Shown here: one piece after another, positions 8,936-42,079 of the stretch
Numbering within the stretch: the first letter of the stretch is position 1
Layout of the letters: every line of letters starts with the position of its first letter
Assembly (NCBI GenBank): GCA_001972305.1
Contig: BDDD01002953.1
Location: forward strand, 92,885 to 156,884
DNA: 64,000 nt
Direction of reading: 5' to 3'
Origin: Cephalotus follicularis
Taxonomy: Eukaryota > Streptophyta > Magnoliopsida > Oxalidales > Cephalotaceae
The notes under the pieces: generated by a model
What the model was told of the DNA's origin: nothing
What the model saw: only the letters and a program-made list of their open reading frames with translations
Databases searched by the model: none
Position numbers and translations under genes: made by a program

Positions 8936-9001
8936 CAGCAGAAATAGAAAGTTAGATTTTTTGCCAGATTTTGTAACTAGGATTGCTTTATTTAAAAAGA
9001 A

Positions 9002-9743: not shown

Positions 9744-10020
9744 TCATATTCTTTTTACAGTGAACATAAGGCCCCTAGATTCCCGTCTATCTGGGTCTGC
9801 AATTTCTGCCTCTTGGGCTACATGAGTTTCTTCTGTATCTCTGCTTGCTCGAGTACGTCTAGTTGATGGCTCGGTTGTTGCTCCTCATGCAGTTCTACTT
9901 CGACGACCGTCTATTTTCACTTCTGTATAACAACAAATGGTAAATATCCACTCATTTATCCGCATGCAATTAATTTTTATAAGCCAAGGACTCCTTAATG
10001 GCATACCAGACATAGGAGAA

Positions 10021-23485: not shown

Positions 23486-24345
23486 TGATATGGGGAAAAA
23501 TTAGTTTATACCAAGAACGACATGTGTCCTCCATTGACACAGCTAAGTGTCCAGGGGCTTTAAAGTCTACATGGAAATTGGTCAGAGGAAGCTTATCAAG
23601 CCTTCGCAGGAGGAGTGGATGAGGGCATCCTCCTCGGAATCAAGTCCGAGGAACCCCTACTTAGTGACGTTGAAGGATCCATCCTGCTCGGCACAAGTGC
23701 CGAGGACCTCCTTTCCAACGTCAATACATAGGACTTATCCAAGGTCCTCCTCCTCAACAGCACTGTAGAAGATCCCTTCCTCAGCAGCTTGGCAGATGAC
23801 TTAATGCTTCAGGCATCAGCCCTTAAAGGAGTTTTTAAAGTGAGTAAATAACAAGAGAACCTATCTCTCCTTGTCCTCGACAGGACAATGCCATAAAATC
23901 AGCCTACATTCCCGGGATTTACCTCCTCCAATATGGAAGATAAGATATAATACACTACTTGCAAGGAAAGTAGCGACAAATCAGGTGGAGATAAGGGAAA
24001 TCCCGATATCCTCGGCATTTTCTTAGGGGACAGCTATCACCTCCGCATTTCACACTCAGACAGTTACACTCCTACACTATAAATACTAGTTCAACAGTCA
24101 GAACAAAGGTTAGCCATTTTTACTCTCAAAGAACCTAGTTTTCTCTGTGCAAAGGCCTAACTTGAGCGTCGGAGTGTCCCCGGGAGAACAACCTCCTGGA
24201 CCTTCAACGTGGTTGCTCTCTAGTGCAGGGAAAACACTCACAGCCTTCTTCTACCTTCATCTCGGAGCATTGACATAGCGTTTCCCTAAACAAATCAAGC
24301 CCTTACACGTGGGGTACTATTGAGGGAAGGATTTCTGTATCAACA
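23486..24345 (+). repeat. 5' LTR of element B (860 bp)
   Basis: TGATATGGGG...GTATCAACA. It holds a TATA box (TATAAATA, 24078-24085), a mutated G-box (ACATGTGTCC near 23520) and short palindromes such as CTCGGCACAAGTGCCGAG at 23687-23704. It differs from the 3' LTR by several substitutions and by lacking one extra repeat unit. Confidence 0.95.
24078..24085 (+). promoter_or_regulatory. TATA box of element B LTR
   Basis: TATAAATA, with the same box in the 3' LTR at 34660-34667 and, on the other strand, in both LTRs of element B2 (35835-35842 and 41378-41385). Conservation across two related families supports a real promoter. Confidence 0.7.
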
Positions 24346-24364
24346 GTTGGCACCATCTGTGGGA
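24346..24364 (+). other. Primer binding site of element B
   Basis: TTGGCACCATCTGTGGGAA directly follows the LTR, the usual position. The TGGCACC start is tRNA-like, but I cannot assign the tRNA with certainty. It differs from the Met type used by elements A, C and D. Confidence 0.75.
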
Positions 24365-24390
24365 ATCGCAGCAAAAAGCTATCAACAGCC

Positions 24391-26160
24391 ATGGCTCCGA
24401 GAAAGAACAACAACCTGTTGGGAGCCTCAAGCAGCCAATAATAGGAGGTCCCTCCTCCTCTCCCGGAAGCTGTCCAGGTGGTGGCCCAAAAACAAGCCCC
24501 TATCACTGAGGAGCGGCTCAATCGGCTCATTCAGGGGGTGGAGCGTCTCACAGATCTGTTGACGACCAACCTCGCCAACCAGTCCTAGGCCCGACATGTC
24601 CAGGAAAATAGCAGAGGACAAAGCGGCCTAGTTAGGCCAGCGGTGGAGTTGAGGCGCCCCCGAGGTGCCAGGTGAAACCCGCCGAGGGGAGACGAACTTC
24701 TCCTAAGGCAGTCAGGGGATAATATTCCCCTGGGGAGGACACCTGAGATCAATGCGTCTCAGAGGGCAGAGTCCTCAACTGCCCAGGATCAGCCCAACGA
24801 TCCCAGAAGAGCGCGCCATGAACACCATGCCATGGATATGGATCCTCGGGAGGAGGCCAGAGGAGAAGATGAGGCGCAAGTGCTCTCCAATGCACCGCGC
24901 AGAGCTGGTACGGCGCGAGGAAGCAGGGTCGACCCCCCAGCCACAGTGGCTGGAGGGTCATGTGTCTCTAGCAAGGCTAGGAACATAGAGGATGTGGAGC
25001 AAGCAATGAACAGAAAGCTTGCTGAGCTAGAAAGAAAGTTCCGAGGAGCAGATTAGAGGAGGGGACATCTGTCTGAGGTGCACAACATCAGCGCCCACCC
25101 CTTCACATCCGAGATCATGGCAGAGGGTGTTCCTAGCGGGTTTCGTTTCCCAAGCCTAGAAAAATATGCGGGTCCACGGATCCCATCGAACATGTGTGCT
25201 CTTACATTCAAGCCATGTGGATGTACCGAGCCTCGGACGCTACACTTTGTCGAGGATTCCCAGCAACACTGACTGGAGCTGCACAGTCGTGGTATTTCAC
25301 CTTGGCAAAGGATTCGGTGGAGAACTTTGATCAGTTTACGGAACTGTTCGTAACGAAGTTCCTCAACAGCACCACGCAGAGGAGGAACTCCACTCACCTG
25401 ATCAACGTGGTGCAGGGCAAAGATGAGTCGCTAAGAGATTACCTCACCAGATTCAACAGGGAGTCTCTCATAGTGAAAGATCTGGAGCCATCCTTTGCAC
25501 TGGCAGCTTTGAATAGCGGACTGAGGAGCAACTCATCCTTCACCTTCTCTCTTTTGAAAAAATCGGCCAAGGACATGGCAGACCTGCTGAGGAGAGTAGA
25601 GAGATATGTCAATGCTGAGGAAGAGATGGCAGCCAGGAAACAAAAGACACCATGGTCAGGCCATCAGGAGGAGAAAGGGGAGCATTCACGAAATGCTCCC
25701 GAGAGGAAAGAGAAGAGGAAGGAGAGGTCAGACTTGTCCAAGGAAGACCTTAGACATAAACTCTCCAGACGAGAAAGCTCATCCAGGGGAGGGGCACCGA
25801 TCCCTTCCTACAACCACTTTGCCCCCCTCATCGACACTCGCACCAGAATACTTGCTGTGGAGCAAGACAAGGTCCCATCCAGTGGCCCGAGAAGATGAGG
25901 TCCCCGGCAGATAAGAGGGACACAGAAAAATACTGCCGGTACCACCGTGACCACGGCCACGATACCGAGGAGTGTAGGCAGTTGAAAAATCAGATTGAGG
26001 ACCTGATTCGGAAGGGGCACCTGCGCAAGTATGTAGACAGAAATGCTCCCCAGGCAAGAAGGGATCAAAGGAGAGAAGAGGCCCCTCAGCAACAAGAGGA
26101 GCAGCAGCAGCAAGAACCAAGAGGTATCATCCACACCATCTCTGGGGGGGTCGCATCTGG
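24391..26160 (+). pseudogene. gag: gag of element B (Tat type)
   Basis: Gag would build the particle. The first ATG after the primer site is at 24391. The frame starts MAPRKNNN and has stops from 24442 on; it continues at 24832-25056 and shifts near 25175 into the capsid-like core (GAAQSWYFTLAKDSVENFDQ, NSTHLINVVQGKDESLRDYL). Another shift near 25895 leads to the Tat-typical Cys/His region KYCRYHRDHGHDTEECRQLK and a Gln-rich tail. The Tat assignment fits the pol downstream. Confidence 0.88.
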
Positions 26161-26820
26161 TGGCGACCACAAATATTCAATAAAAGCCTATGGGAGGCAG
26201 TCCCTTGCTGTGCAACAAGTCCATCACAGCAAAAGGCTGAGGACTGGTGGAGATGTGGAAGTTATATCCTTCTCAGAGGTGAACTACGAGGGAGTACGTC
26301 TCCCTCACGATGATCCGGTGGTGGTAATTCTTCAGGTGGAGCTTTTCACCATGAAGAGTATCCTTATAGACAGCGGCAACTCGGCCGATATCCTGTACAA
26401 ACATGCGTTTAATTAGCTGAGGATACCGGCAGACCAGCTCAAGCCAGTAAAGACCCCACTGGTTGGCTTCGCAGGTGAGATGGTCCATCCTCTGGGATCC
26501 ATTGACTTGTCCGTGGTTGCAGGGATAACCCCACGCCAAACCCAGGTAGAGATGACATTCCTAGTGGTTGATACACCAAGCCCATATAATGCAATAATTG
26601 GGCGACCAGGTCTAAACTTAATGGAGGCCATAGTGTCCACGAGACGCTTGTTGATGAAGTTCCCCACAAGGTTTGGCGTGGGGGAGGTTAGAGGAGATCA
26701 AAAGGTAGCAAGGCAGTGCTACAAAACTGCCATCATGGACAAGGGGAAGGACAAGGTGCTTCCGATAGCAAATGTGGAGCTCAGAGGAGACATGGAATCT
26801 GAGCGTCCATAGCCTGTTGA
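26161..26820 (+). pseudogene. pol (PR): Aspartic protease of element B
   Basis: The active site is ILIDSGNSADILY, Asp-Ser-Gly beginning at 26367. The later conserved block PYNAIIGRPGLN sits near 26590. One stop splits the domain right after the active site (AFN then LRIP), consistent with CAG to TAG, and another occurs at about 26811. The reading frame is otherwise the same from 25895 to about 27160. Confidence 0.88.
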
Positions 26821-27830
26821 GAACGTGGTCCAAGTGCCCTTGGAAGAGGGCAACACTGAAAAAGTTTTCCAAGTTGGCTCACAGCTTGGAGATGTGGAGA
26901 AGGGGGAATTAATAACATTCCTCCGAAATAACAAAGACGTGTTTGCCTGGTCGGCAGAGGAGGTCCCTGGGATCAGCACAAATGTCATGGTTCACAAACT
27001 AAGTGTGGACCCAATGAGGCCTCCGACCAGAGAAAAGAAGAGAAACTTTGCTCCAGAGAGGCAGCAGGCAATAGCAGAAGTGGTGAGCAAGCTGTTGCAG
27101 GCAGGGTTCATAAGGGAAGTGCATTACTCAGACTGGCTGGCGAACCCAGTACTAATAAAAAAAAGTGAATGGCAAGTGGAGGATGTGCATCGACTTCACA
27201 GACCTCAACAAAGCCTGCCCAAAGGTTCACTTCCCTCTCCCAAAGATAGGCCAGTTGGTGGATGCGACCTCGGGTTACAGAATGTTAAGCTTCTTGGACG
27301 CCTACTCGGGATACAATCAAATTCCCATGTACGGGCCTGACGAGAACAAAACAGCTTTCATCACGGACCAAGGAATGTATTGCTACAAGGTTATGCCCTT
27401 CGGCCTAAAGAATACAGGGGCCACCTACCAACGTTTGGTGAACAAAATCTTTGAGCCTCAGATTAGGAAAAATATGGAGGTCTACATCGACGACATGCTC
27501 GTCAAGACCCCAGCCAGGAGCCCCCACATAAAAGACTTGGAGGAAACATTTGAGGTGCTGAGGAGATACAACATGAAACTCAATCCATCCAAGTGCACAT
27601 TCAGGGTCACCTCTGGCAAGTTCCTCGGATTCATGGTCTCCAGCAGAGGAATAGAGGCCAACCCAGAGAAGATCTCAACAATTTAGAGCATGAGGCCTCC
27701 TCAATCCATCAGGGACGTGCAAAGGTTGAATGGGAAGATTGCAGTCCTGAGCAGGTTTGTGTCAAAGTCAGCAGAGAAGTGCCTTCCTTTCTTCAAAATA
27801 CTCAGAGATCCCAAGAGATTTTCTTGGTCA
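26821..27830 (+). pseudogene. pol (RT): Reverse transcriptase of element B
   Basis: The domain begins with GFIREVHYSDWLANPVLIKK in one frame, then shifts near 27160 in an A run. The core follows: CIDFTDLNKACPK (Tat-typical), SFLDAYSGYNQI (first Asp), MPFGLKNTGATYQRLVNKIF, and the catalytic YIDD at 27483-27494. All three catalytic Asp are kept. A stop at 27684-27686 falls where Tat elements usually have Trp, consistent with TGG to TAG. Confidence 0.92.
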
Positions 27831-28310
27831 GACGAGTGCCAAGCAGCCTTCGACAAGTTGAAGGAATACTTGGCTTCCCCTCCACTGATCTCAAAACCTA
27901 AGGATGGGGAAGATTTGTATTTGTACCTTGCAGCCACCTCGGGCGCAGTGAGTGTGGTTCTATTCAGAGAAGAGGAAAAAGTTCAAAAGTCGGTGTACTA
28001 TGTGAGCAAGGCTTTGAATGATGCTGAAGGAAGGTACCCAGAGGTAGAGAAGTTTGCATATGCTTTGATCATCTAGGACAGAAAACTGAGGCCATATTTC
28101 CAAGCCCATACAATCAAGGTTCTGACTGACAAACCGCTTAAACAAGTTCTTGCAAAGCCTGACACCTTGGACAGGTTGATCAAGTGGTCAGTCGAGCTAG
28201 GCGAGTATGATGTGAAGTTCGAAGCCAAACCAGCAATCAAATCACAGGTCCTAGCCGACTTTGTTGGAGATAATACACCTACGGAGTGTATGGAGGAGGA
28301 TCCCTCCGAG
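27831..28310 (+). pseudogene. pol (RH): Ancestral gypsy RNase H of element B, catalytically degenerate
   Basis: The region keeps the gypsy RNase H outline: LYLYLAATSGAVSVVLF, VYYVSKAL, EGRYPEVEKFAYAL and KVLTDKPLKQVL. In place of the first catalytic Asp there is LAAT, so one catalytic residue is missing, which is known for Tat elements whose second RNase H may have taken over. A stop follows ALII at 28074. Confidence 0.85.
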
Positions 28311-28760
28311 AGCGAGATGGGAATTTGGAAGTTATCTGTGGATGGCTCATCTTGGATCACTGGCAGCGGAGCAGGACTGGTATTGATGAGTCCAGACTGT
28401 TGGACGTTAGAGTATGCTCTAAGGTTCAAATTTAAAGCTACAAACAACGAAGCTGAGTGGGAAGCGCTGATAGCTGGGCTGACGATCGCAAAGCACTTGG
28501 AGGTGCAAAAGATAGAGGCCTCCAGTGATTCTCAGCTAGTGGTTGGTCTAGCAAATGGAGAGTATCAAGCCCGAGAAGACCCAATGGCAAAATACTTATC
28601 CCATTTTCAGAGTATGAAGTCAGCTTTCAAGTTCCTAAGAATTTTGAAAGTACCCAGAGCAGAGAACACCCGAGCAGACCAGTTATCAAAACTAGCAATG
28701 GCAGAGAAGCTAGAGAAAAATCAAACTGTGCTAGTAGACTACCTGGACAAGCCCACCATC
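28311..28760 (+). pseudogene. pol (aRNH): Second, archaeal-type RNase H (aRNH) of element B
   Basis: This extra RNase H lies between the gypsy RNase H and integrase, the diagnostic Tat arrangement. The four acidic residues of the fold are present: WKLSVDGSS, TNNEAEWEALIAG, IEASSDSQLVVG and ENTRADQLSKLA. The stretch is open throughout (part of 28167-28895), so this domain looks the best preserved in the element. It is still part of a broken polyprotein. Confidence 0.9.
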
Positions 28761-30039
28761 TCTGAAGTGGATGTGATGGACATTGACATACCGCAAGAGC
28801 CAAACTGGATGACTCCTTTCATAAATTGGCTGGGGAATGGAATTTTATCCGAGGACCCCGTGGAGGCGAGGAAGCTGATCTGCAGAGAAAACTGATTCCA
28901 ACTCCGAGACGGGATCCTCTACAAAAGATCTTTCCCTTTTCCTTGGCTAAGATGTATGACCCCCTTAGAGGCCGATTATGCTCTGAGGGAGGTCCACGAA
29001 GGAATTTGTGGCAACCACACTGGGGCATAACATTATCTCATAAGCTATTGAGGCAAGGATACTACTGGCCGACTATGCATCAAGATGCTATAGACTTGGT
29101 GAGAAAGTGTGACAAGTGTCAGAAGAACGCAAACATAAGCAGGACACCTTCACAACCTCTGACGTCTACCACGGTCCCATGTCCCTTTGCACAGTTGGGA
29201 ATGGACTTCGTCGGACCACTACCTATGGCGACAGGCAAGAGGAAGTTTTTCATTGTAGCAGTGGACTACTTCACTAAGTGGGTGGAAGCAGAACCTCTAG
29301 CCACTATTACCAAGAAGAACACAGAGAGCTTCGTATGGAAGTCAATCATCTGTAGATTTGGAGTCCCGAGGACAATTATCACAGACAATGGTAAACAGTT
29401 TGATTGCCAAGCCTTTCATGGCTTTTGCAAAGAGTAGAGGATAGAGCATAGGCTGCCTCAGTAGCCTACCCCCAAAGTAATGGTCAAGCCGAGGTGATCA
29501 ACATAGAAATCATCTCGGGCTTGAAGAAGCGCCTAGAAGACAGCAAAGGAAGATAGACGGAGGAGCTACCAAGCGTGCTATGGGCATACAGAACAACTCC
29601 TCGGACCAGAACCGGTGAGTCCCCATACAGTCTATGTTTCAGAGCAGAGGCTATGATACGAGTGGAGATTGGTGTAGTGTCACCAAGGGTTGTACATTTC
29701 ACTGAAGACAACAATGAAGAAGGTCTCAAATACATCCTTGACTTAGTGGAAGAACTCAGAGATAAGGCCGCTATCAGAGTTGCAGCCTACCAGCAAAGGG
29801 TGGGTCGCTATTATAACAAAAGAGTAAGGCCCAAACTACTAAGGCAAGGAGTTCTAGTCCTACGCAACTCCGCCGTTGCAGACCCCACTGGCACCAGAGG
29901 AAAACTAGCCCCTGCCTGGGAAGGGCCATACAAAATCAAGAGGGTCCTCTGCCCAGGAACATTCAAACTTGAAACTTTGGGGGGTAGGGAGATTGCCAGA
30001 GCTTGGAATGCCGAGCATTTGAGGAAGTACTATCAATGA
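28761..30039 (+). pseudogene. pol (IN): Integrase of element B
   Basis: The zinc finger is EVHEGICGNH then LRQGYYWPTMHQD and CDKCQKN; a frameshift near 29010 separates its His and Cys halves. In the core the first Asp is in GMDFVGPLP (29204-29206), the second in ITDNGKQFD (29384-29386) and the Glu in NGQAEVIN (29491-29493), so the triad is kept, but stops and a shift lie between 29437 and 29470. The C-terminal part (LWAYRTTPRTRTGESPYSL, WEGPYKIKRVL, LRKYYQ) is intact from 29575 to the stop at 30037-30039. No chromodomain is seen. Confidence 0.9.
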
Positions 30040-30919
30040 ATGTAAGTTGTACAAATTCAGATATCAATGAAAAAGAATTTTTCAAAACATGTGTTCGATA
30101 TCATAGTTTGGATCTTGCAAGGGACTGGAGGTCCAATGTTCATGTCCTCAAACCTCTGAACAGCCACCGACCAACTCCCTCAATCTTTACTTCAAGCATG
30201 TCTGGTCACGCTCCCAAGGGAGCATTCAAAGTACAGCATGACACAAGTCCAATGCTTTCTAAGTTGTCTTACAAAGACTAGCCCCCAAGAAAAAACAAAC
30301 ACAAGCCGAGGTCTCGAACAGACTGAGGTAACGAACGTCCGAGAAAACACTCAAGGACAAACATACTAAACACTCCTTCCAAGGAGCGCCCGAAAGACTC
30401 CTTCCGAGGAGTACCAAAAGACTTCCAAGGAAGCACTAAGACTCCCCAGGGATAAATCACTGGTCGGCAACACCATGGGTACTTGACCAGCCAGACCTAA
30501 AATCGTGACTTGAAAGGCGAATCCATGGGAACTCGAAACGATCATGCTCGTCGGACTAAGCACTTTAATACAAGTGTCCCTATGTGAACTGCAAGCTCAG
30601 CCGACCTGTCCTAAAACCTAATGGGTCAGACGATACTCTGCTCGGCAAACCCATAGGAACTTGCCCGAGCAGATTAAGGACTTAGTCTACGAATGCAACA
30701 TAATTCATAAAGACTGAGTTACAATTACTTAAGCACTTTTGAAATAAAGTGTCCTATGAGGACTATTAAGCTTAAGTGTTTACTTCTTCGAGAAGTCAGT
30801 AACTTGGGCAAAGTTATAATTCCTAAGGGAATGGTCAACACATACGTATATGCAGAGCTCGAGTACACAATGAAAAAAAATAATCGAAGGCAAAATCAAA
30901 GAATGCAAAAAGGTCTTTC
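30040..30919. other. Non-coding region after pol in element B
   Basis: No gene is seen. It contains short inverted repeats around ACTCCTTCCRAGGAGYRCC near 30370-30440. It corresponds to 39700-40608 of element B2. The minus-strand gene that follows ends just beyond it. Confidence 0.7.
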
Positions 30920-30925
30920 TTTATT
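30920..30925 (-). terminator. Poly(A) signal of the antisense gene in element B
   Basis: AATAAA on the minus strand about 80 bp after the stop codon at 31005-31007. The B2 copy has AATAAA at 39694-39699, about 60 bp after its stop. Confidence 0.6.
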
Positions 30926-31004
30926 TATAGATTGAAAAGATTACAAGTTCACTAAAAAGTAAACTGTTATAAGGCAAAAAGGAAAAAAAGCTAGTCTACA
31001 AAGA

Positions 31005-33423
31005 CTAAGCAGTGGGAGGAGCATAAGGAGAAGGTTCATCCTCTGGAGGTAGAGGAACAAAGGGTCCAGTCGGAGGAGGTTTGGGAGTGACCAGATCCGA
31101 AGAGAGAGCCAATGAAGCCGAGGCCAATGTAGGATCGACAGAGGAAACATCTGACCCATCTCCTCCTCCGTCGTTTCCTTGGCCGACAACAGCTTTAGAA
31201 GCAGGTTGGACTTCCCATTCCTCTTCCACAGCCCTTTGGCCAGCTCTTTCTTCCAAGGCTTCTTCAGCCTTCACCTCCTCGGCTTCATAACCATCGGGAT
31301 AGTAGTCGAAGGCTTTGGGATCCGAGCAGTAGGCAACCTCACCCAATGGAACCTCGGGATGGAGAGCTGTAACCCAGTTCCGACATGTGTAGAACCCCCG
31401 ACGGTAGTACTCGACGGACTCCTTGAAGACCTCGTCAGTAAAGGCTTTTGAAGCTTTGTAATCCTCCATGGAGGCCTCCATCAAGCTCTGGAATTCACCC
31501 GAGGACTTGAACTCAGTCAGGGCATCCTCCACTGCCTTGGTCTGCTGCTCCTCCTGTTTCTTGACAGAGTCTTCATGCTTCCTTTGCAGTGCCCGATACT
31601 GGTCGCCGATCTTGGAGAGGTCCTTTATCATTTGGTCCCTCTCCATGACAGCTTTGTTCCTCTCCTCCACAGCTGACTCTTAGGCCTTGAGGACTTCTTC
31701 CAGCCAGCCCTTCGCCAATCGCGAGGTCTCCATCTCCACCATCAGTTCCTCCCTTGCTTTGTCATACCTCTCCAAGATGATTGAGAAATTTTCGACCAAG
31801 AGGTGATGATCATTCAAAGTCTGCAAGAAAGACATAGAAATGAGAAGAATGAAAGCATATAAGAAGAGGAAGGTAAAGTAAACAAGAAGAGGATCCTTCT
31901 TACCGTGAAATGGCTCTGCAGAGAATTATGGATCAAGTCCTTGTTGGTCCAGTCCTTCCCCTCCTTCAGCTCGTTAGGGAAGAGGCACAGGGAGTTGAGA
32001 GCGAATGGGACCCCGGGGTTCTCCAAGCTGGTGGACCCATTCCCAACCCCCTCCAACTCTTCGATCATTTTCTCCACGTCCCGAGGAGGAGGCAAAATGA
32101 TGGGGTTGTTAGAGGTCCTGCGAGAGCTAACTCGACCTCGACCTCGGACACGTGTTTCCCTTTTTTGCTTTGGGGCTGTGGAGGAGTGCCAGAGGACGCC
32201 CCCCAGCAGGATGCTTGGTTCCCTTCTCCTTGGTTACCATAGCAGCCTTTTTCATCTGCTTGGCCCCCTCGGCGGCGGCCTTCGCCCTCTGCTTGGCCCC
32301 CTCTGTAGCATCATTTTCTTTTTGCTTGGCCGCCTCCGCGGCAACCATCTGCTTGTTTGCTTCAGTAGATGAAGGTTTGGTGATCCTGGTAGCATTGAAG
32401 AGAGCATCGAATCCTCGCCGAGAAGCCATTGCTACACAAAAAAGAGGTAAACAGGTCAGGAACACGGCAACAAATAGTAAGAAAGCAGAGGAAATACGAA
32501 GACAAGAACTGGAGGAGATGAAAGCTTTATACAGTTTTTCCCCAACTCTTGGGGCATGGACTTGTCTGGGGATCCCCCACCCCCTGAGGTGTCCTCGACA
32601 TCTGCCGAGTATGATCCTCGGAAGGGAACTACACTCAGCCCAACTCAGAGCAGACGATCCTCAAGCACTGTGGAGTTCACCTCCTCGGGCTCCAAGCGCG
32701 AGAGTTTGCCGAGGTCCATGTTCTCTGCTGTTGTCAGAGGGGATCTCCTATTAAGGGGTGGAGTTTCCATGGAGTCACACCAGACAGGGGGGGTGAACCC
32801 CTCAAATTTTTTTATGAGGAAGTATCTTCTCCTCCAATTTTTGATAGATTTGGTGGGGTTCAAAAGAAGTTTCTTTACGCCAGGGCGGGACTTGAAGAAA
32901 TACCCACGCTTCCCTGGCGAGGACGAGATGACATGGAACTCTTTAAATAGTCCAACTATCGCAACCACCTCAGATTCTAGACACCTAACTAGGAAGCCTA
33001 TGATAAAGCTCCAAGACTGAGGTTGGAGAAGAGAAGGGTGGAGATGAAATGTCTCCAAGACCGAGAGGGCGAAAGAGGGCACCGGGATCCTTAAGCCGTG
33101 GGAGAGCGCGCCCTCAAAGACAGCGAAGAGGCCCTCCTTACTTTCAATAACCAGCCGAGGATCCGAGGGGAGACTAAATCTCAACCCAGCGGGGATATTA
33201 TACTTACGAGAAAGTTCTAGCACCTCATCGCGAGAAAGAGTGCTAACACCAAAGTAATCCGGGGCTAGGGTGTCAGCCTCGGTAATGGGAGCAGTAGGGT
33301 CACCAACCGCAGCCCCAGGCTGCCTTCAGAGGAAAGGGGACTTTGGACGGTGGGAACCACCATGGCTAGGGGTTCGCCTTCTAGGGGAGGAGAAGGCCTA
33401 GCAGTTTGTTTAGTTCTAGCCAT
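31005..33423 (-). pseudogene. Spliced antisense gene of element B (Transposase_28-like 'gypsy-type transposon' protein), lightly decayed
   Basis: This gene lies opposite to pol between IN and the 3' LTR. Exons inferred by comparison with B2: 33423-32533, 32431-31904 and 31820-31005, with introns 32532-32432 (GTATAA...TGTGTAG) and 31903-31821 (GTAAGA...TTGCAG). The start ATG is at 33421-33423 and the protein begins MARTKQTARP. Exon 1 has a globular part (RIPVPSFALSVLETFHLHPS, LLQPQSWSFIIGFLVRCLES) resembling the plant Transposase_28 family; exon 2 is Ala/Lys-rich; exon 3 has a coiled-coil-like acidic region and YYRRGFYTCRNWV. Frameshifts near 33320 and 32110 and stops near 32645 and 31680 break it. 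Antisense ORFs at this place are known in Tat elements; their function is unknown. Confidence 0.82.
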
Positions 33424-33499
33424 CTATGTCAGACGAAAAAAGAAGAAGCTAGAGAAATCCTAGATTGAACTTAGAACAACAAGAAGACTGGCAACTTAC
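33424..33499 (-). other. Putative 5'UTR intron of the antisense gene (element B)
   Basis: The donor TTTG|GTAAGTT is identical in context to B2 (37088-37098). A pyrimidine-rich stretch leads to CATAG immediately before the start ATG. Confidence 0.6.
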
Positions 33500-33630
33500 C
33501 AAAGATCTTGATGAAAAAATGGTAGGAAGATGAAGGTTTGAGGGCACTGTAAATTTCAATATCACACAGCAGCAAGACGAAGGAAAGAGTTTGAAGGAGT
33601 AAAAGGTTTGCTTTGTGAAGTAGATATCAT

Positions 33631-33637
33631 TTTTATA
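33631..33637 (-). promoter_or_regulatory. TATA box of the antisense gene (element B)
   Basis: TATAAAA on the minus strand about 210 bp upstream of the ATG, preceded by GGATCCGAG. B2 has the same GGATCCGAG followed by TATAAAAG at the same distance. Confidence 0.65.
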
Positions 33638-34027
33638 GGCTTGTAACTCGGATCCTGGCCCTCCACATCACACAGATCCAATGGCTGAGGAATGAACCGT
33701 CAAATCAGATGCGGGAGAGGAAGAGACAGAAGTGGGAAACGCTCTGTTTATGCCACGTGTAAGTCGTGTTCAATACGCAACTTAAATGCAAATAATTTGG
33801 GCTCGCGACACGAGGCCCGTTAGCTGAGAAAGATCTAAACGAAAGACAAGCTTCAATCCTCTGCTAGGGCGAGCTCAATGTTGTGTTAGAGAATCACTAA
33901 AAGCTACACCATCAAACCTCAGCTCCTTTGCACGTGGAAAAGCTAATGTAAAGCTCTGCAGAGGAGTCCAGCCTGAGCCACGGCTCCCAGCTCTGTTCCT
34001 CCTCCTCTAACCACGGTCAGAGAAGAA

Positions 34028-34043
34028 GGACCAGGGGGGCATA
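34028..34043 (+). other. Polypurine tract of element B
   Basis: GGACCAGGGGGGCATA immediately precedes the 3' LTR. The same 16 bases occur on the minus strand before the B2 3' LTR at 36531-36546. Confidence 0.9.
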
Positions 34044-34927
34044 TGATATGGGGAAAAATTAGTTTATACCAAGAACGACACGTGTCCTCCGCAGACACAG
34101 CCAAGTGTCCAAGGGCTTTAAAGTATACATGGAAATTGGTCAGAGGAAGCTTATCAAGCCTTCGCAGGAGGAGCGGATGAGGGAATCCTCCTCGGAATCA
34201 AGTCCGAGGAACTCCTACTTAGTGACGTTGAAGGATCCACCCTCCTCGGCATAAGTGCCGAGAACATCCTTGGCACAAGTGCCGAGGACCTCCTTTCCAA
34301 CGTTAGTACATAGGACTTATCCAAGGTCCTCCTCCTCAACAGCACTGTAGAAGATCCCTTCCTCAGCAGCTTGGCAGATGACTTAATGCTTCAGGCATCA
34401 GCCCTTAAAGGAGTTTTTAAAGTGAGTAAATAACAAGAGAATCTATCTCTCCTTGTCCTCAGCAGGACAAGGCCATAAAATAAGCCTACATTCTAGGTAT
34501 TTACCTCCTCCAATATGGAAGATAAGATATAATACACTACTTGCAAGGAAAGTAGAGACAAATCAGGTGGAGATAAGGGAAATCCTGATATCCTCGGCAT
34601 TTCCTTAGGGGACAGCTATCACCTTCGCATTTCACGCTCAGACAGTTACACTCCTACACTATAAATACTAGTTCAACAGTCAGAACAAAGGTCAACCATT
34701 TTTACTCTCAAAGAACCTAGTTTTCTCTGTGCAAAGGCCTTACTTGAGCGTCGGAGTGTCCCCGCGAGAACAACCTCCTGGACCTTCAACGTGTTTGCTC
34801 TTATGTGCAGGGAAAACACTCACAACCTTCTTCTACCTTCATCTCGGAGCATTGACATAGCGTTTCCCTAAACAAATCAATCCCTTACAAGTGGAGTACT
34901 GTTGAGGGAAGGATTTCTGTATCAACA
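34044..34927 (+). repeat. 3' LTR of element B (884 bp)
   Basis: TGATATGGGG...GTATCAACA. It carries the intact G-box core ACACGTGTCC at about 34078-34087, a TATA box at 34660-34667, and a local duplication of the GGCAYAAGTGCCGAG palindrome near 34247-34288 that the 5' LTR lacks. Confidence 0.95.
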
Positions 34928-34932
34928 GAAGT

Positions 34933-35583
34933 TAATCTATTTGAACTATGTAATATTTCAATTGTATTAAATGTTTGATATTTGTTAAGGTAAAATATAA
35001 GATCTATTTATGGAGTCACAAATGAGGTGATAAAATCTCATTTGTAACTTTTTTAAAACATTACTTGACTTTTTTAAAATATCAGTGATGATTATTTTAA
35101 AATCACAAATGAGATTTTATCACATCATTTGTGACTCAATCTGTTCACACAAAAGAGTTGTTTACATTCATTAATCTCTTATTTTATTTCATCTTTTTCT
35201 TTTGAGTAATGCTATTAATCATAAAAAATGTAACATCACAAGCAAATTGTCAAAATATCTTTTTTTAAACATCATTAATAATGTTTTGATTTTAATGAAA
35301 CAATCTGTAATCATATTTAGACAACTAAATTATGATTAATAAAATTATTTTTTCTATTTTCATTTGTGAAATAATTTCTATTTTCTGCAATTAGTGTGTG
35401 TTGCCTATAAAACCTATACAATTAATTTTTGGTCGTTCAACACATGAACTACTTTATGGTCGAAAGATCTTCACAGTTGAATATTCAACTTATGGGATAA
35501 ACAATTTGTTTATGCTAAAAGGTGTATCCATTATAAATGTTTCTGGGCAAATCTTTTGTAAATCTTTTGTTATTGATATATAT
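34933..35583. other. AT-rich interval between elements B and B2
   Basis: Old target DNA with one small foldback (35013-35137) and one short ORF at 35398-35589. The last five bases (TATAT) are the left target duplication of B2. Confidence 0.7.
35013..35137. mobile_element. Small foldback, MITE-like (125 bp)
   Basis: The left arm, from GAGTCACAAATGAGGTGATA, and the right arm, ending CATCATTTGTGACTC, are inverted copies of about 37 bp with a few mismatches, around an AT-rich centre. No clear target duplication is visible, so the family is unassigned. Confidence 0.6.
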
Positions 35584-35589
35584 TGTTGA
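35398..35589 (+). other. Short orphan ORF (63 codons), unrecognised
   Basis: The frame opens at a non-ATG start and its last codons run into the B2 LTR. The composition is AT-rich and I recognise no family. It may be chance or a gene fragment cut by B2. Confidence that it is a gene is low. Confidence 0.15.
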
Positions 35590-36530
35590 TACAGAAATCC
35601 TTCTCTCAACAGTATCCTACGTGGAGGACTTTTATTTGTTAAGAGAGACGCTAGCCAAGGATGCCTGGAGGAAGATTTCGATCTCTGATCCCTGCACAAG
35701 GTAACAAAATGGTGGATAGCCCAGGAGGTTGTTCTCCCGGGGACACTCCGACGCTCAAGTTAGACAAAGTGCAGAGGATATAAGGTTCTTTGCAATGTAA
35801 AAATGGCTGACCTTTGTTCAGTCTGTTGAACTTGTATTTATAGTGTTGTCTTGTAACGGTTTGAGCGTGAAAATAGGAGGTTATAGCTGTCCCCTAGGGA
35901 AATGCCGAGGATCCCGGCCATTCCCCTTGATCTCCGCCAAAAATGTCGTTGTTTCCTTTGTTAGTAGTTTGGTATATCACAACTTCTTTATTTAGATAAG
36001 GACGAATCCCAAAAAATCAGGTTGAGATAACTCCCTTATCCTGTTGGCAAAGTGATACTCGTATGTCGTTGGACTGTTGAGGACATGAATTACTACACTA
36101 CTTCCGAGGTCATGGGCCTTCTGGTGCTTCCTCAGTGGTGTACATTTAGGACGCCAGGTCCTCTATCATTCATCCGAGGACGTGGCCTTTTTGGATAGAG
36201 CCGGCGAGAAATCCTCAGTTTCTGTGTAGTGGAGGGAATGTCTTCTGTCCCATGTCTGATAGATACTGTGGGCAGAGGAAGTCCTCGGCCCTGACATTCC
36301 GGATGAGGTCTTCTGACCTGAAGTCCGAGGAGGGTCCTCGGCCTTGATGTCTCAGTATGTGCTCTTCAAAAAATAGTGGTCCTCGGCTCTGGGTCCGAGG
36401 AGGATGTCCTCTACCATGTATGTGTTCCTCGGCATGGCCTTTTGACAAGCTTCTAATCCCCCCTGGACAACTGGCCACGTCTGCGGTGGACACATGTCCC
36501 TCTTAATATAAACATATTTGTCCTCCATCA
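35584..36530 (-). repeat. 3' LTR of element B2 (947 bp)
   Basis: Plus-strand TGTTGATACAG...CCTCCATCA. On the minus strand it starts TGATGGAGG and ends CTGTATCAACA like LTR B. It has a minus-strand TATAAATA at 35835-35842. The G-box is mutated (GACACATGTCC near 36489). Confidence 0.93.
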
Positions 36531-36546
36531 TATGCCCCCCTGGTCC
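36531..36546 (-). other. Polypurine tract of element B2
   Basis: On the minus strand GGACCAGGGGGGCATA abuts the 3' LTR and is identical to that of element B. Confidence 0.9.
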
Positions 36547-36958
36547 TTGTTCTCTGACCTTGGTCAGAGGAGGAGGATCAGAGTTGAGAGCCTTGGCTCG
36601 GGCAAGACTCCTCTGCAGTACTTCCCACTAGCTTTTCTTTGTACAAATGGACCGAGGCTGAGAGTGTTGCCTTTGTCGTTCCTCTGATACAAAACCTAGT
36701 CTGCCTGAACCGAGGACTAAAGGCTTGCCCTTTGATCTGTCACTAATTTTATTGACAGGCCTCGAGTTGAGAACCGTTATGATTATCATTTAACTTGCGT
36801 ACTGAATACGCTTCACACGTGGCACGCTCAGAATGTCTCCCGCCTCTGCCTTTTCGTTTCCCGCGCCTGTCTCCTCATTTCCCGCGCCTGATTTGACGGT
36901 CCGTTTCCCAGTCGTTGGATCTGTGCGAGGTGGAGGGCTAGGATCCGAGATGGGGGTC

Positions 36959-36966
36959 TATAAAAG
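36959..36966 (+). promoter_or_regulatory. TATA box of the antisense gene (element B2)
   Basis: TATAAAAG about 218 bp before the ATG at 37177, preceded by GGATCCGAG as in element B. A 5'UTR intron donor TTTG|GTAAGTT follows at 37088-37098, with a likely acceptor TTCTTTAG ending at 37149. Confidence 0.65.
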
Positions 36967-37176
36967 CTTTTGTTCTTCTCACAGCAAAACTTTCGTCTCT
37001 TGAACCTTCAGAACTTACATTGTTGTTGAGAGCTTGCCCAATCCACAGTGCCTTCAGAACCCTATTCCATCCCTTCGAATCAAAGTCTTTGGTAAGTTTC
37101 TGTCATCTCTTTGCTTTTCCAGATCGCTGTAAGATTTTTTTTTCTTTAGCAATTTTTTGTTCTTCATTTCTTACTC

Positions 37177-39632
37177 ATGGCTAGTCAAGAACAATCTAGT
37201 GGGTCTTCTTCTACTTCTCCCCTGTCTGTCGAGCCTTTGGCCATGGTGGTTCCAACCGCTGAAAGGCCACTTGGTGTTGAAGGTACTCTGGGGGCTGCGG
37301 TGGGTGACCCTGATGCACCCATTGCAGAGGCCAATCCTCTTCCAGATGATTGTGTCTTCGGTGTAAGCGCCCTCAGCCAAGCTAAGGTGAAAAATCTCTC
37401 TGCAAAGTACAACTTCACTCGTGGGTTGACCTACTGTTTTCCTAAGGATCCTCGGATAGTTACCATGAGCCGAGAAGGTCTCTTTGTGATCTTCGAAGGG
37501 GAACTTTCCCATGGTCTGAGGGTCCCAGTTCCTTCCTTTGCCATATCTGTCTTAGTCAACTTTAGTCTTCATCCCTCACTTCTTCAACCTCAGTCTTGGA
37601 GCTTCATAATAGGCTTCCTCGTCAAATGTATAGAGTCCGAGGTGGATGCGACTGTGAACCTGTTTAAGGAGTTTCACGTCCTCTCGGCCACCCCTAAAAC
37701 GATCGGGTATTTTTTTCAAGTCCCGTTATGGGGTGAAAAAGCTTCTCCTCAACCCTACCAAATCCATAAAACACTGGAGGAAGAAGTACTTCTTAATAAA
37801 GGACTTTGAAGGATTTACTCCCTCTCCCTGGTGCAACTCCCTGGACACAAAATCTTTGAACAAGAGGTCTCGCCTGACCTCAGCTGAGAAGATCGGCCTT
37901 AATAAACTCTTGGCCCTTGAGCCAGAGGATGTGAACTCCACCGCTAGCGAGGATCGTTTGATCCAAGCCGGACTGAGTGTAGTCCTCGGACCAAGATCTC
38001 CCTCGGACGGATCCGAGGAGGACGTCTCAGAGGGAGAGGGAGAACAAGATAGTCCTCAGCCCCCAATGTTGGAGCAAATTTGTATAAAGCCTTTGCCTCC
38101 TCCGTTTCTTCTGTTTGTGCTATTTTCGTTGATTTTTTTGCATTTTTGGATCTCTGTTTTTAACTCTCTTGTCTTTTTTCATCTATGGCTCCTCGTCGCG
38201 ACTTTTCTACTATCATGAAGGCCACCGACTAGAGGAAGGCCCCTGCAACTGGTGGGCCGAAGCCTAAGGGGAAAACCTCTGTGGCCGAGGGGTCAAGGCC
38301 GTAGGTCAAAACTCCTCCACCTGCTAGGGTGCCTGTTGCTGCTGCCGAGAAGAGGAAGGAAGCAAGCAAAAGGGCTGCAGATAGCACCTCCATTGCTGAG
38401 CACGCTCCTCTGATGAAAAAGAGCAGGAAAGGGAAGGCTGTCGACGAGACCAAGAAGGTGCAGGAGGTCGAGGACGTCGCTGCCCTCGGAGCAAGCTCCC
38501 AGGACCCAATCATCATTCCTCCAACTCGGGAGGTAGACGAGCTGCTTAATGAGTTTGAGGACATGGACTGCCACAAACTTAACCTGAACAGTCCTGGGGT
38601 CCCCCAAGCAGTTAGTCGGCTGGTCTTCTTCCCCATGGAGATGGAGGCAAGGGAGAAATGGTCCAACGAGGAGTTGGTGACCCATTGTATGAGGAGCAAC
38701 TTGAGGGTAAATGATCTCTTCCTTAGTTGCCTTGATTTTACTTGTGTTTTGGTTCTTCATAATTACTAACATTTGTACTCCTCTGACAGGCTCTGAACAA
38801 CACTCAACTGCTTGTGGACAACTTCTCTACAGTAGTAGCCAGGGAAAGAGAGCTGAGGACGAGCATGGCCTCGATGGAGGAAACTGCCCACTCGGCTCAG
38901 GCTCAAATGAACGAGGTTCTCAAGGTTCAGGAGTCCTTGGTCGAGGAGAAGAAGCAAGCGGTTGAGGACTTGGAGGAGGAGAGGGCCGAGAGGAAGGGGC
39001 TGGAGGCCAAGCTGAACCAAGCCGAGAAGAAAATCGATGATCTGGTAGCCAGGCTTGAGCGGCAGCAGAGGAAAGAGAAGGAGCAGCTGAGGAGGGAAAA
39101 AAACTAGGCAGTTGCAGACTTCAAGAACTTGGAGGAGTTCAAGGAGTTGATAAGGTACTCCGTGGAGGAATTCAAGAGCTCAGACGAGTTCGAAGAAGCA
39201 GTGTTCCAGGAAGAGACCGAGTACTTACGTCGGGGCTTCTATGCATGCAGGAATTGGGTCTCTTCTCTGCAGCCCGAGTTCTCGCTGGATGAAGTGGTGT
39301 ATGGTCCCTCTGCCAATGCATTTGACTTCTACCCAGAGGGAATTGATGCAGTGGAGGAGAAACTTCGACAGACGTTGGAGGAAGGAGTCTCATCAGCCAT
39401 GGTGGATGATCTGCCAACTCCAACTTCACCTGACTTGGTTATTCTTGCTGCGGATCCTGCTACCTCCTCGGACCATGCATCAGAACCCTCAGCTCTTCCT
39501 TCCTCTTCGGCTCCAGAAGACCCCTTTGCTGGCTTTGGAGATCCTCCTCTGCCTTCTGTTGAGGCCTTCTTAACTCCTCCACCCCAGTACGAAGACCCTC
39601 TGGCAGAGCAAGAAGATCCTCCTCAACCTTAG
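37177..39632 (+). pseudogene. Spliced antisense gene of element B2 (Transposase_28-like), lightly decayed
   Basis: It is transcribed opposite to the element. ATG at 37177-37179; the protein starts MASQEQSSG. Exon 1 (to about 38081) has the globular region ENPLPDD-like acidic lead, RVPVPSFAISVLVNFSLHPS and QPQSWSFIIGFLVKC, matching the element B copy. Intron 1 has donor GTATAAAG at 38082; exon 2 begins near MAPRRDFST (38185) and ends at 38706; intron 2 is 38707-38789 (GTAAAT...TGACAG), 83 bp and phase 0 as in B. Exon 3 (38790-39632) is a Lys/Glu-rich coiled coil followed by YLRRGFYACRNWV and a Ser/Pro-rich tail. One extra T near 37711-37717 shifts the frame, and TAG stops lie near 38230, 38302 and 39104. 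Function unknown. Confidence 0.82.
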
Positions 39633-39693
39633 CTTTTTTGTTTTGCTTTGTAATAGTTTTTAGTCTCTTTTCTTGTAATCTCTTCTAAACATC

Positions 39694-39699
39694 AATAAA
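39694..39699 (+). terminator. Poly(A) signal of the antisense gene in element B2
   Basis: AATAAA about 60 bp after the TAG stop at 39630-39632, in a T-rich 3' region. Confidence 0.65.
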
Positions 39700-40608
39700 G
39701 GAATTTCTTTTTTCATTCTCTGGTATTGCCATTAAATTTTTCTTCTATGTGTTATGATTGATCTCTACATACTTGTACTTATTAATAATTCCCTTAGGAA
39801 TTTTGTCTTCATGGTGACCTCTGACTTCTCACACAAGTGGGCACTTGACTCCAAAAAAGCTTAAGCAACTTATCAGAAATATAAATAAAAAGGCTTTGCC
39901 TTCTCAGACTTTATCTTCAATTGGTTCCTTGTATGTTTGAGCTTTGATTGTATATATGTGCTGATAATTCCTTAGGACTTTTAACTTAGCCCAAATCACT
40001 AACTCTCCGTGGACGAGGTCACTAACTCTCCTATGGGTTTGCCGAGGAGAGTATCGTCTGACCTAAGAGGATTTAGGACAGGTCGGCTGAGCTTTCAGTC
40101 CACTTGGAGACACTTGTATTAAAGTGCTCAGTCCGACGAGCTTGATCGTTGCGAGTTCCCATGGATTCGCCTTTCAAGTCACGATTTTAGGACTGGTTGG
40201 ACAAGGTCCTATGTTGTTGTCGGCCAGAATTTGCTCCCTTAGGAGTCTTAGTGCTTCCTTGGAAGTCTTTAGGCGTGCTCATCGGAAGGAGTCTTTGGTA
40301 TGTGCGTCCTTGGATGCTCTTGAATGCCTGTTTCACTGCTCTGTCTGAGACCTCGGCTTGTGTTGGTTTTCCTTTTGAGAATTAGTCTCCGTAAGGCTTA
40401 GGAAGCTTTAGATCCCTAAGTTCCCCCTTGGGGGCGTGGTCTGAGATGCTTAGCTTAAGACTGAGGGAGCTGATCGGTGGCTGTTCAGAGGTTTGAGGAC
40501 ATGAACATTGGACCTCTGGTCCCTTGCAAACTTGGAACTATAATGTTGAACACAAATCGTTGAACGAATCTTGAAAAAAATTCAAACCTCATTGAAAATA
40601 TCTTACAA
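39700..40608. other. Non-coding region of element B2
   Basis: It corresponds to 30040-30919 of element B in reverse. No gene is seen. It has the same GGAAGTC / GGAAGGAGTC short inverted repeats. Confidence 0.65.
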
Positions 40609-41160
40609 TTATTGATAATACTTCCTCAGACGCTCGGTATTCCAAGCGCTGGCAATCTCCCTACCCCCCAAAGTTTCAAGTTTGAATGTTCCTGGGCGGA
40701 GGACCCTTTTGATTTTATATGGTCCTTCCCAGGCAGGAGCTAGTTTTCCTCTAGTACCAGTAGGGTCTGCAATGGCTGAGTTGCGTAGGACTAGATCTCC
40801 TTGCCTTAGTGGTCTTGGGCTTACTCTTTTGTTGTAGTAACGGCTTATCCTCTGCTGATAGGCTGCAACTCTGATTGCAGCCTTGTCTCTGAGTTCTTCC
40901 ACTAGGTCGAGGAGGCACCTCAGCCCTTCCTCGTTGTTGTCCTCAGTAAAGTGCACAACTCTTGGTGATTGTATTCCAACCTCCACTGATATCATAGCCT
41001 CCGCTCCGAAACATAAACTGTATGGGGATTCTCCTGTTGTAGTCCGAGAAGTAGTTCTATATGCCCATAATACACTTGGTAACTCCTCGGTCCACCTTCC
41101 CTTGCTGTCTTCTAAGCGCTTTTTCAAGCCCGAGCTGATTTCTCTGTTGATCACCTCGGC
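40609..41160 (-). pseudogene. pol (IN): C-terminal part of B2 integrase, 5' truncated
   Basis: 181 codons are open, starting MINREISSGLKKRLED and ending LRKYYQ, with WAYRTTSRTTTGESPYSL and WEGPYKIKRVLRPG. This is the tail after the catalytic Glu. It aligns with 29500-30039 of element B but lacks the stop that B has before EELPS. Upstream it runs straight into the truncated LTR at 41160, so the core and zinc finger are missing. Confidence 0.9.
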
Positions 41161-42074
41161 TACGTGGAGGACTTTAATTTGTTAAGAGAAATGCTAGCCA
41201 AGGATGCCTGGAGGAAGATTTCGATCTCTGATCCCTGCACAAGGTAACAAAATGGTGGATAGCCCAGGAGGTTGTTCTCCCGGGGACACTCCGACGCTCA
41301 AGTTAGACAAAGTGCAGAGGATATAAGGTTCTTTGCAATGTAAAAATGGCTGACCTTTGTTCAGTCTGTTGAACTTGTATTTATAGTGTTGTCTTGTAAC
41401 GGTTTGAGTGTGAAAATAGGAGGTTACAGCTGTCCCCTAGGGAAATGCCGAGGATCCCGGCCATTCCCCTTGATCTCCGCCAAAAATATCGTTGTTTCCT
41501 TTGTTAGTAGTTTGGTATATCACTACTTCTTTATTTAGATAAGGACGAATCCCAGAAAATCAGGTTGAGATAACTCCCTTATCCTATTGGCAAAGTGATA
41601 CTCCTCTGTCGCTGGACTGTTGAGGACATGAATTACTACACTACTTCCGAGGTCATGGGCCTTCTGGTGCTTCCTCAGTGGTGTACATTTAGGACGTCAG
41701 GTCCTCTATCATTCATCCGAGGACGTGGCCTTTTTGGATAGAGCCAGGGAGAAAATCCTCAGTTTCTGTGTAGTGGAGGGAATGTCTTCTGTCCCATGTC
41801 TGATAGATACTGTAGGCAGAGGAAGTCATCGGCCCCGACATTCCGGATGAGGTCTTCTGACCCGAAGTCCGAGGAGGGTCCTCGGCCTTGATGTCTCAGT
41901 ATGTGCTCTTCAAAAAATAGTGGTCCTCGGCTTTGGGTCTGAGGAGGATGTCGTCTACCATGTATGTGTTCCTCGGCACAGCCTTTTGACAAGCTTCTAA
42001 TCCCCCCTGGACAACTGGCCACGTCTGCGGTGGACACGTGTCCCTCTTAATATAAACATATTTTTCCTCCATCA
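41161..42074 (-). repeat. 5' LTR of element B2, lacking its last 30 or so bases
   Basis: It begins CTACGTGGAGGAC, matching 35614 onward in the other LTR. The 3' LTR shows the missing terminal TGTTGATACAGAAATCC. The outer end is CCTCCATCA next to TATAT. It has an intact G-box GACACGTGTCC at 42033-42043 and a minus-strand TATAAATA at 41378-41385. Confidence 0.93.
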
Positions 42075-42079
42075 TATAT

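Follow-up and report, generated by a model that had tools for sequence, protein, structure and literature searches.

Two LTR retrotransposons in a 64,000-nucleotide stretch of the Cephalotus follicularis genome (contig BDDD01002953.1, hereafter the window) contain the same unit on the strand opposite to their genomic RNA. Comparison of family copies strongly supports the conclusion that this antisense unit is a real protein-coding gene with three coding exons, maintained by purifying selection during the active period of the elements. The predicted protein of element B starts MARTKQTAR, and its residues 2-9, ARTKQTAR, match residues 1-8 of histone H3 exactly, a feature that the earlier note did not mention. 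We give even chances to the reading that the accessory protein encoded by this antisense TRP28 gene of a Tat/Retand-type family mimics the H3 tail.

Element B is assigned to the Tat/Retand type on its gag, RVT_3 and integrase domains, which lie in gypsy order between LTRs of 93% identity. Pfam matches were found in three of the six B ORFs tested (gag; RVT_3; rve + H2C2), and no RT domain was found among these six ORFs, which are broken. An RVT_3 RNase H immediately ahead of the integrase corresponds to the additional RNase H that Tat elements carry. The LTRs of element B2 are 97% identical and enclose a remnant matching the end of the B pol region (B 29487-30220 against B2 41161-40425, 83% match) together with the antisense gene. 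The earlier note placed this gene between integrase and LTR in both elements; the description fits B, while B2 has only the pol-end remnant on that side. The TRP28 domain PF04195 was detected in the antisense gene of B (E 6.4e-8) and of B2 (E 1.6e-8), as well as in 4/4 tested representatives of three groups bearing the H3-like start. By position and domain, the B gene classifies as a Retand-type antisense TRP28 accessory gene. Both window copies of the gene are broken (Table 1).

Table 1. Elements B and B2 and predicted parts of their antisense genes, in window positions.
Feature	Position	Strand	Remarks
Element B, Tat/Retand-type Ty3/gypsy LTR retrotransposon	23486..34928	+	LTRs ~23486-24346, ~34044-34928
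B gag PF03732	25137-25895		Pfam match
B RVT_3 RNase H	28077-28892		Pfam match
B integrase rve + H2C2	28787-29434		Pfam match
B promoter motifs GGATCCGAG (33655) and TATAAA (33637)	33632..33655	-	direct reading
B 5'UTR intron	33424..33499	-	GT at 33499, AG end 33424; acceptor abuts ATG
B exon 1, MARTKQTAR start then TRP28 domain	32533..33423	-	stop near 32647; frame difference (891 columns, 892 in other copies)
B codons 2-9, ARTKQTAR, as at start of mature histone H3	33397..33420	-	
B coding intron 1, GTATAAAG...GTGTAG	32432..32532	-	phase 1
B exon 2	31904..32431	-	frame difference (528 columns, 530 in other copies)
B coding intron 2	31821..31903	-	83 bp in window copy, phase 0, GT..AG
B exon 3	31005..31820	-	stop near 31682
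AATAAA beyond B gene	30920..30925	-	
Element B2	35617..42077	-	LTRs ~35617-36533, ~41160-42077
B2 promoter motifs GGATCCGAG (36941) and TATAAA (36959), and 5'UTR intron	36941..37149	+	GT 37092, AG 37148-37149
B2 exon 1, MASQEQSSG start (without H3 motif), TRP28 domain	37177..38081	+	frameshift near 37710
B2 counterpart of coding intron 1	38082..38184	+	donor GTATAAAG present, usable AG acceptor absent
B2 exon 2	38185..38706	+	stops 38230, 38302
B2 coding intron 2	38707..38789	+	83 bp, GT..AG
B2 exon 3	38790..39632	+	stop 39105
B2 AATAAA	39694		

The case for a coding gene rests on 40 B-family copies sampled from the host genome. The dN/dS test that had been proposed gave a pooled value below 1 in the spliced frame (0.337), against 0.898 and 1.163 in the two shifted frames; exon 2 and exon 3 taken separately gave 0.287 and 0.393. 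Exon 1 variants seen in single copies are spread evenly over the three codon positions (142/136/143), whereas variants shared between copies concentrate at the third (43/30/90), and in exons 2 and 3 the third-position skew is likewise present in shared variants and absent from singletons. Together, a dN/dS near 0.34 against about 1 in the shifted frames and the skew of the shared variants indicate a real gene. The exon columns sum to whole codons (892 + 530 = 474 codons), so that the frame is preserved across intron 1, in phase 1. The other proposed test, exon against intron divergence, was ambiguous as raw nucleotide identity (exon 1 0.898, intron 1 0.895, exon 2 0.875, intron 2 0.866, exon 3 0.850, 5'UTR intron 0.814); we rejected it as uninformative since these values do not separate exons from introns, which the codon-level tests do. 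Shared indels number 2 in 2246 exon columns, 4 in the 83 columns of intron 2, 4 in the 79 columns of the 5'UTR intron and 0 in the 101 columns of intron 1.

These codon-level results also bear on the proposal that the unit matters only as antisense RNA, regulating the element through dsRNA or siRNA, with an incidental ORF. Antisense transcripts have been proposed as regulators of such elements (PMC7264820, in the part of that review drawn on here), and a TATA box and intron signals exist. Nevertheless, purifying selection at the codon level in all three exons and a frame kept over two introns lead us to reject the RNA-only reading, which we regard as very improbable. The unit may still act as both RNA and protein.

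The signals expected of a separately transcribed and spliced gene are kept to different degrees. As reported earlier, GGATCCGAG and a TATA box precede the gene in both elements, with TATAAA 214 bases (B, ATG at 33423) and 218 bases (B2, ATG at 37177) ahead of the start, and the 5'UTR donor TTTG|GTAAGTT is found in both. In the aligned stretch, TATAAA occurs in 30/40 B copies. It also lies 205-246 bases upstream in 23/25 further B-group copies chosen by pattern, and at that distance in none of the G2 and G3 copies checked. The 5'UTR intron has GT in 37 of the 39 copies with letters there and AG in 37/40; the corresponding counts among the 40 B copies are GT 36 and AG 40 for coding intron 1, and GT 38 and AG 39 for coding intron 2. 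The TATA box and GT..AG introns are thus maintained across the B family, and splicing of the antisense gene is inferred. Other parts of the earlier description were narrower than the family. Coding intron 2 is exactly 83 bp in both window copies, but ranges from 64 to 87 bp among the 40 B copies (83 bp in 21). AATAAA follows the stop in both window copies (30925 and 39694), yet occurs in only 12 of the 39 B copies with sequence at that place. The first coding intron has its donor in both (32532; 38082) and lacks a usable acceptor in B2, where the only AGs between the donor and 38230 (38088, 38219) do not, by our reading, restore the frame. Codon tests, splice dinucleotides and TATAAA strongly support the claim of a real gene with its own 5' structure. 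No spliced retrocopies were found in the host genome with a 31-base exon2|exon3 junction allowing up to 3 mismatches (0 matches, against 196 for the unspliced boundary).

Intron 1 could be read otherwise, as not, or not only, an intron: its conserved GTATAAAG start would function as a TATA box inside the gene or be retained as a coding tail, so that a short TRP28 protein and, downstream, a second protein beginning MASRRGFDALF would be made. Consistent with this, intron 1 is conserved like exon 1 and free of shared indels, three copies with donor AT instead of GT retain TATAAAG, the downstream exon has an ATG 2 bases past the acceptor, and the acceptor is missing from B2. We nonetheless consider it unlikely, given the invariant acceptor and nearly invariant donor among the B copies and the single phase 1 frame that splicing would yield.

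The H3-like start is widespread in the host genome. The degenerate pattern MARTKQTA[RS] gave 548 matches and the control 0, while an H3 search of the genome (E up to 0.001) gave nine H3 places that include residue 1; none of 40 fetched pattern matches was an H3 gene. Four groups (B, B2, G2a and G3) were sampled without regard to the N-terminus, and three have an H3-like start, exact in B and G3 and with V at position 3 in G2a. Site by site, the majority residues spell ARTKQTAR both in the B family (39 of 40 copies usable) and in G3 (18 of 20). The G2a sample (19 of 20) reads mostly ARVKQT[AT]R, with no exact ARTKQTAR, and a second G2 clade (40 places) starts MARTKQTARQ, as seen in pattern-chosen copies only. 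Copies set aside before these counts had a gap or unrelated start (one in B) or no recognisable start (one in G2a, two in G3); the start was placed at the best MARTKQTAR match near the expected site, with at least 4/9 required, which leans slightly towards the motif. In the B2 family, the window copy and 20/20 sampled copies begin MASQEQSSG or a close variant, so the motif is dispensable for some families. Identity beyond chance and protein-level conservation are thus found, and presence in all families is not.

Between B and G3, codons 2-9 differ little at the protein level although silent sites are saturated (pN 0.084, pS 0.873), whereas codons 10-17 are unalignable (pN 0.639, pS 0.645). Within the B family, codons 1-10 (pN 0.100, ratio 0.238) are no more strongly conserved than the whole of exon 1 (0.067, 0.303), and the case for special constraint therefore rests on the between-group comparison. 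Position 7 is Ala in 29/39 B copies. Nearly all copies seen have another residue in place of K9, and a reader requiring K9, such as SHH1 at its K9me site, would therefore not be served. A sequence search of the PDB with the N-terminal 37 residues (E up to 10) returned nothing, which, given the short query, is no evidence against the H3 identity. No relatives were found in viral_contigs, and an AlphaFold2 prediction for the B TRP28 piece with two B2 pieces gave no reliable structure (mean pLDDT 34, pTM 0.22).

Two other explanations of the start have to be weighed against mimicry. The conserved nonapeptide may serve another purpose, as a basic nuclear-targeting or nucleic-acid-binding end or an N-terminal processing signal, the H3 identity being convergence with no binding of H3 readers. 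This explanation, which we rate as a credible but distinctly weaker contender, agrees with the related clade ARVKQT[AT]RQ, which keeps the basic R/K/Q positions and not the exact H3 string, with the B2 family managing without the motif and with the ordinary conservation of the B start relative to exon 1. It does not readily account for eight consecutive identical residues at the free N-terminus, as in H3, for which a rough residue-frequency estimate of chance is ~1e-9 to 1e-10 per protein, nor for the best-kept positions including A1, R2, K4, Q5 and R8, which in H3 are commonly contacted by tail readers. Alternatively, the start could be a relic and not a selected mimic, recombination or transduction having brought it in from an H3 (or CENH3) gene of the host. 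The exact identity to H3 agrees with this, and transduction of host fragments is known for plant LTR elements (PMC7264820, same part). The identity ends after residue 8, however (leaving aside a Ser that group G1 has at position 10), and groups with unalignable codons 10-17 retain the peptide of codons 2-9. That retention despite saturated silent sites disfavours a passive relic, and we consider the relic explanation improbable; capture with later selection may still have occurred.

Under the mimic reading, the antisense gene would be transcribed from its own promoter, opposite to the genomic RNA, and then spliced. Cleavage of the initiator Met before Ala would free the ARTKQTAR end, and the accessory protein would act in the nucleus, where this end could serve as a decoy or tether, recognised by host proteins that read the unmodified H3 tail. 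Plausible targets would be SHH1 or ZMP, described as H3K4me0 readers acting with Pol IV, in RNA-directed DNA methylation, or other PHD-finger proteins. The remainder of the protein may stay with element DNA, RNA or the integration complex, such that silencing would be weakened or integration steered. With K9 replaced, the mimic could be bound by readers but not marked at K9. This specific version, a nuclear Retand-type protein with a free H3 1-8 N-terminus binding H3K4me0 readers as an RdDM decoy or integration tether, we hold at slightly below even chances.

Antisense accessory genes in Tat elements, which the earlier note rightly called known, and an own promoter for such a gene, in maize Grande, are already published and not new here. 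In the portion of the Retand survey available to us (PMC11963269), antisense TRP28 (PF04195) ORFs lie between pol and the 3' LTR in all clusters but two, and TRP28 genes, their function called unknown there, occur in nearly all recently active clusters; the B gene has the same domain, orientation and place. Unlike the spliced model proposed here, that survey predicts plain ORFs ('intron' has 0 occurrences in its text), and the portion available has no mention of an N-terminal H3 motif. Plain-ORF surveys would fragment a gene spliced in this way or miss parts of it. Similarly, gene23 of maize Grande (Gomez-Orte et al. 2013, via PMC7264820) is an accessory gene that lies antisense within the 3' internal region, has its own promoter upstream and encodes a nuclear protein; the review has 0 occurrences of 'intron', and its part covering gene23 leaves an H3-like start unmentioned. 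Ogre elements, also of the Tat clade, splice out an intron that separates gag-prot from RT according to the excerpt used (PMC6317226), but that intron is in the sense genomic RNA, whereas those of B and B2 would be on the opposite strand. Influenza A NS1, as excerpted from PMC12937675, resembles the H3 N-terminal tail and engages host chromatin factors; its mimic is C-terminal, in contrast to the eight-residue, N-terminal putative mimic of a plant retrotransposon described here.

The conserved H3-tail start offers a concrete and cheaply testable hypothesis, namely that TRP28 proteins bind those H3-tail readers by which transposons are silenced. If the mimic does bind, a large class of plant retrotransposons would join viruses as users of histone mimicry.

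Elements B and B2, two Tat/Retand-type Ty3/gypsy retrotransposons, each carry a TRP28 gene in antisense orientation, with Transposase_28/TRP28 (PF04195) matching at E 6.4e-8 in the B gene and 1.6e-8 in the B2 gene. Gypsy-type LTR elements bearing a Retand-type gene suggest a flowering-plant host. Element B encodes gag, RVT_3 RNase H and integrase domains (Pfam), and in the internal region of B2 all that remains beside the antisense gene is a segment resembling the end of the pol region of B. Neither gene is intact: each has frame differences and stops. Two further repeats of the window are listed with them.

Features of the window, in window positions
Feature	Position	Strand	Remark
Element B	23486-34928	+	LTRs 93% identical
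B gene, 5'UTR intron	33424-33499	-	
B gene, exon 1	32533-33423	-	
B gene, intron 1	32432-32532	-	
B gene, exon 2	31904-32431	-	
B gene, intron 2	31821-31903	-	
B gene, exon 3	31005-31820	-	
Element B2	35617-42077	-	LTRs 97% identical
Palindrome	9001-9744		near-perfect, 744 bp, 94% self-complementary; perhaps a foldback element
Inverted repeat	14497-16805 and 20133-22450		2.3 kb, 82% identity; probably two oppositely oriented copies of one element

The B gene was aligned with 39 other copies from the 1.58-Gb assembly of this one genome, the 40 being those scored among 4598 first-look candidates. The alignment has 892, 530 and 824 columns for exons 1, 2 and 3, and the coding introns keep a single frame because 892 + 530 columns make 474 whole codons; exons 1, 2 and 3 are open in 8, 15 and 5 of the 40 copies, respectively. 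The earlier note had proposed dN/dS below 1 over the exons as a check, and the pooled ratio in the spliced frame was 0.337, compared with 0.898 and 1.163 in the shifted frames; pairs were pooled and non-independent, so the ratios are descriptive and the frame contrast serves as the control. By exon the ratios were 0.303, 0.287 and 0.393, and introns translated as codons gave 0.57 to 1.38. Singleton variants fall evenly over the three codon positions (142/136/143, 83/78/90 and 196/178/175 in exons 1, 2 and 3), as expected after insertion, while variants present in at least four copies are skewed to third positions (43/30/90, 35/27/71 and 64/55/109). The 2246 exon columns hold 2 indels shared by at least three copies; there are 4 in the 83 columns of intron 2, 4 in the 79 of the 5'UTR intron and 0 in the 101 of intron 1. 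This codon-level evidence leads to the conclusion that the antisense gene is protein-coding and made a protein that selection kept.

Splice dinucleotides are likewise retained among the B copies, with GT in 36/40 and AG in 40/40 for intron 1, and 38/40 and 39/40 for intron 2; the 5'UTR intron has GT in 37 of the 39 copies with letters there and AG in 37/40. Because both the frame and the splice sites are conserved, we infer that the gene is spliced. A genome search for spliced retrocopies gave 0 junction matches, versus 196 matches of the unspliced boundary. Intron 1 is conserved like exon 1, without shared indels in the 40 copies, and has TATAAAG within its start, also found in B2 and in other members of G1, the B-like group of related genes. 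This unusually well-kept intron may have a second role, perhaps providing a TATA box inside the gene or, when retained, a coding tail.

The earlier note had described a complete, separately promoted and spliced antisense unit in both elements. Direct reading confirmed the positions it gave for the promoter motif, TATA box, 5'UTR donor, intron 1 donor, intron 2 and AATAAA. Its first coding intron fails in B2, which lacks a usable acceptor, the only AGs (38088 and 38219) both being out of frame by reading. Intron 2 measures 83 bp in both window copies, but across the B copies it ranges from 64 to 87 bp and is 83 in 21/40; similarly, AATAAA, present in both elements, occurs in only 12/39 copies of the B family. 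TATAAA, also present in both, is found in 30/40 B copies within the aligned stretch. Among pattern-chosen copies it lies 205 to 246 bases upstream of the ATG in 23/25 of G1 and in none of G2 (13) or G3 (2), the other two groups.

A feature overlooked in the earlier note is the start of the B protein, MARTKQTARPSPPLE, whose residues 2-9, ARTKQTAR, equal the N-terminal octapeptide of mature histone H3. This start prevails among the B-family copies, which were picked by sequence downstream of it: the motif is exact in 20 of 39 usable copies (of 40), and site by site the majority counts are A34 R36 T39 K38 Q37 T38 A29 R36. Searching the genome with a degenerate DNA pattern encoding MARTKQTA[RS] gave 548 exact matches (285 + 263), against 0 for the reversed-pattern control. 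A genome search with an H3 query, whose hits included five full-length genes at 97-99%, gave 23 places within an E cutoff of 0.001, of which 9 cover residue 1, so histone H3 genes can account for at most a few of the 548. No H3 gene was present among 40 matches inspected out of 100 listed, the 40 being chosen non-randomly for spelling diversity. By eye, as automated labels misplace some copies, these fall into G1 (25, continuing ...SPPLEVEPLAMVVPT), G2 (13, e.g. ...QVxDPNxVxRLAGE or QISTPEEV) and G3 (2, ...PAGSQPISS or similar); PF04195 was found in all four representatives run against Pfam (one G1, two G2, one G3). One pattern-chosen copy, L075, reads MARTKQTARKISTP, extending the H3 match through K9, and L124, chosen regardless of its start, reads MARVKQTARKITTP.

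Unselected samples were drawn with query DNA starting 130 bases after the ATG, taking 20 of 38 new places for G3 and 20 of 39 for G2a, a clade of G2. Five of 18 usable G3 copies match exactly, and the commonest residue at each site spells ARTKQTAR; in 6, TGA or CAA stands in place of the Arg codon CGA. The 19 usable G2a copies mostly read ARVKQT[AT]R, and 0 are exact. K9 is missing from the H3-like end in nearly all copies examined, and motif positions 3 and 7 differ from family to family or inside a family. For B versus G3, codons 2-9 give pN 0.084 and pS 0.873, compared with 0.639 and 0.645 in the unalignable codons 10-17; B versus G2a gives 0.190 and 0.754 for codons 2-9. These values indicate that the start is far better preserved between groups than the sequence after it, and that this conservation acts on the protein, not the DNA. 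Within the B family the start is unremarkable (pN 0.100 over codons 1-10 and 0.067 over exon 1 as a whole, with respective ratios of 0.238 and 0.303).

B2 contrasts with the B family twice. The 5'UTR acceptor, directly at the ATG in the B family, is set back about 27 bases upstream in the B2 window copy (37092-37177, plus strand), and the H3-like start is missing: among 20 copies sampled from 40 other places of the B2 family the start is MASQEQSSG in 17, with one or two residues different in 3.

Published work already describes antisense TRP28 genes for Retand elements. The accessible text of one survey reports them in 57 of 104 antisense ORFs and in all but two clusters, short ORFs counted (PMC11963269); an earlier survey is cited for 23% of Retand elements, and the publications, as far as their accessible text goes, term the function unknown. 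The word 'intron' has 0 occurrences in the accessible text of that survey and of a review (PMC7264820), which describes Grande gene23, a gene of the same kind with a nuclear protein and its own promoter. Influenza NS1, reported as an H3 mimic (PMC12937675), is a precedent. Among the matches listed that link histone mimicry to retrotransposons or other transposable elements (titles and abstract openings, with few subscription papers covered) this mimic was not reported, and the sole match for MARTKQTAR with 'transpos' was a xylem histone-mark study without this mimic.

We propose that the antisense gene would be transcribed against the element and spliced, that Met would be removed before Ala to leave a free ARTKQTAR end, and that the protein would act in the nucleus. 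In plants, SHH1 is described as reading unmethylated H3K4 together with methylated H3K9 and ZMP as reading unmethylated H3K4, both reported to act together with Pol IV during RNA-directed DNA methylation. A free H3-like end without K9 could engage readers needing A1, R2 and K4, but not those needing K9. Two roles would fit, and we do not choose between them: the protein could serve as a decoy against silencing or as a tether for integration.
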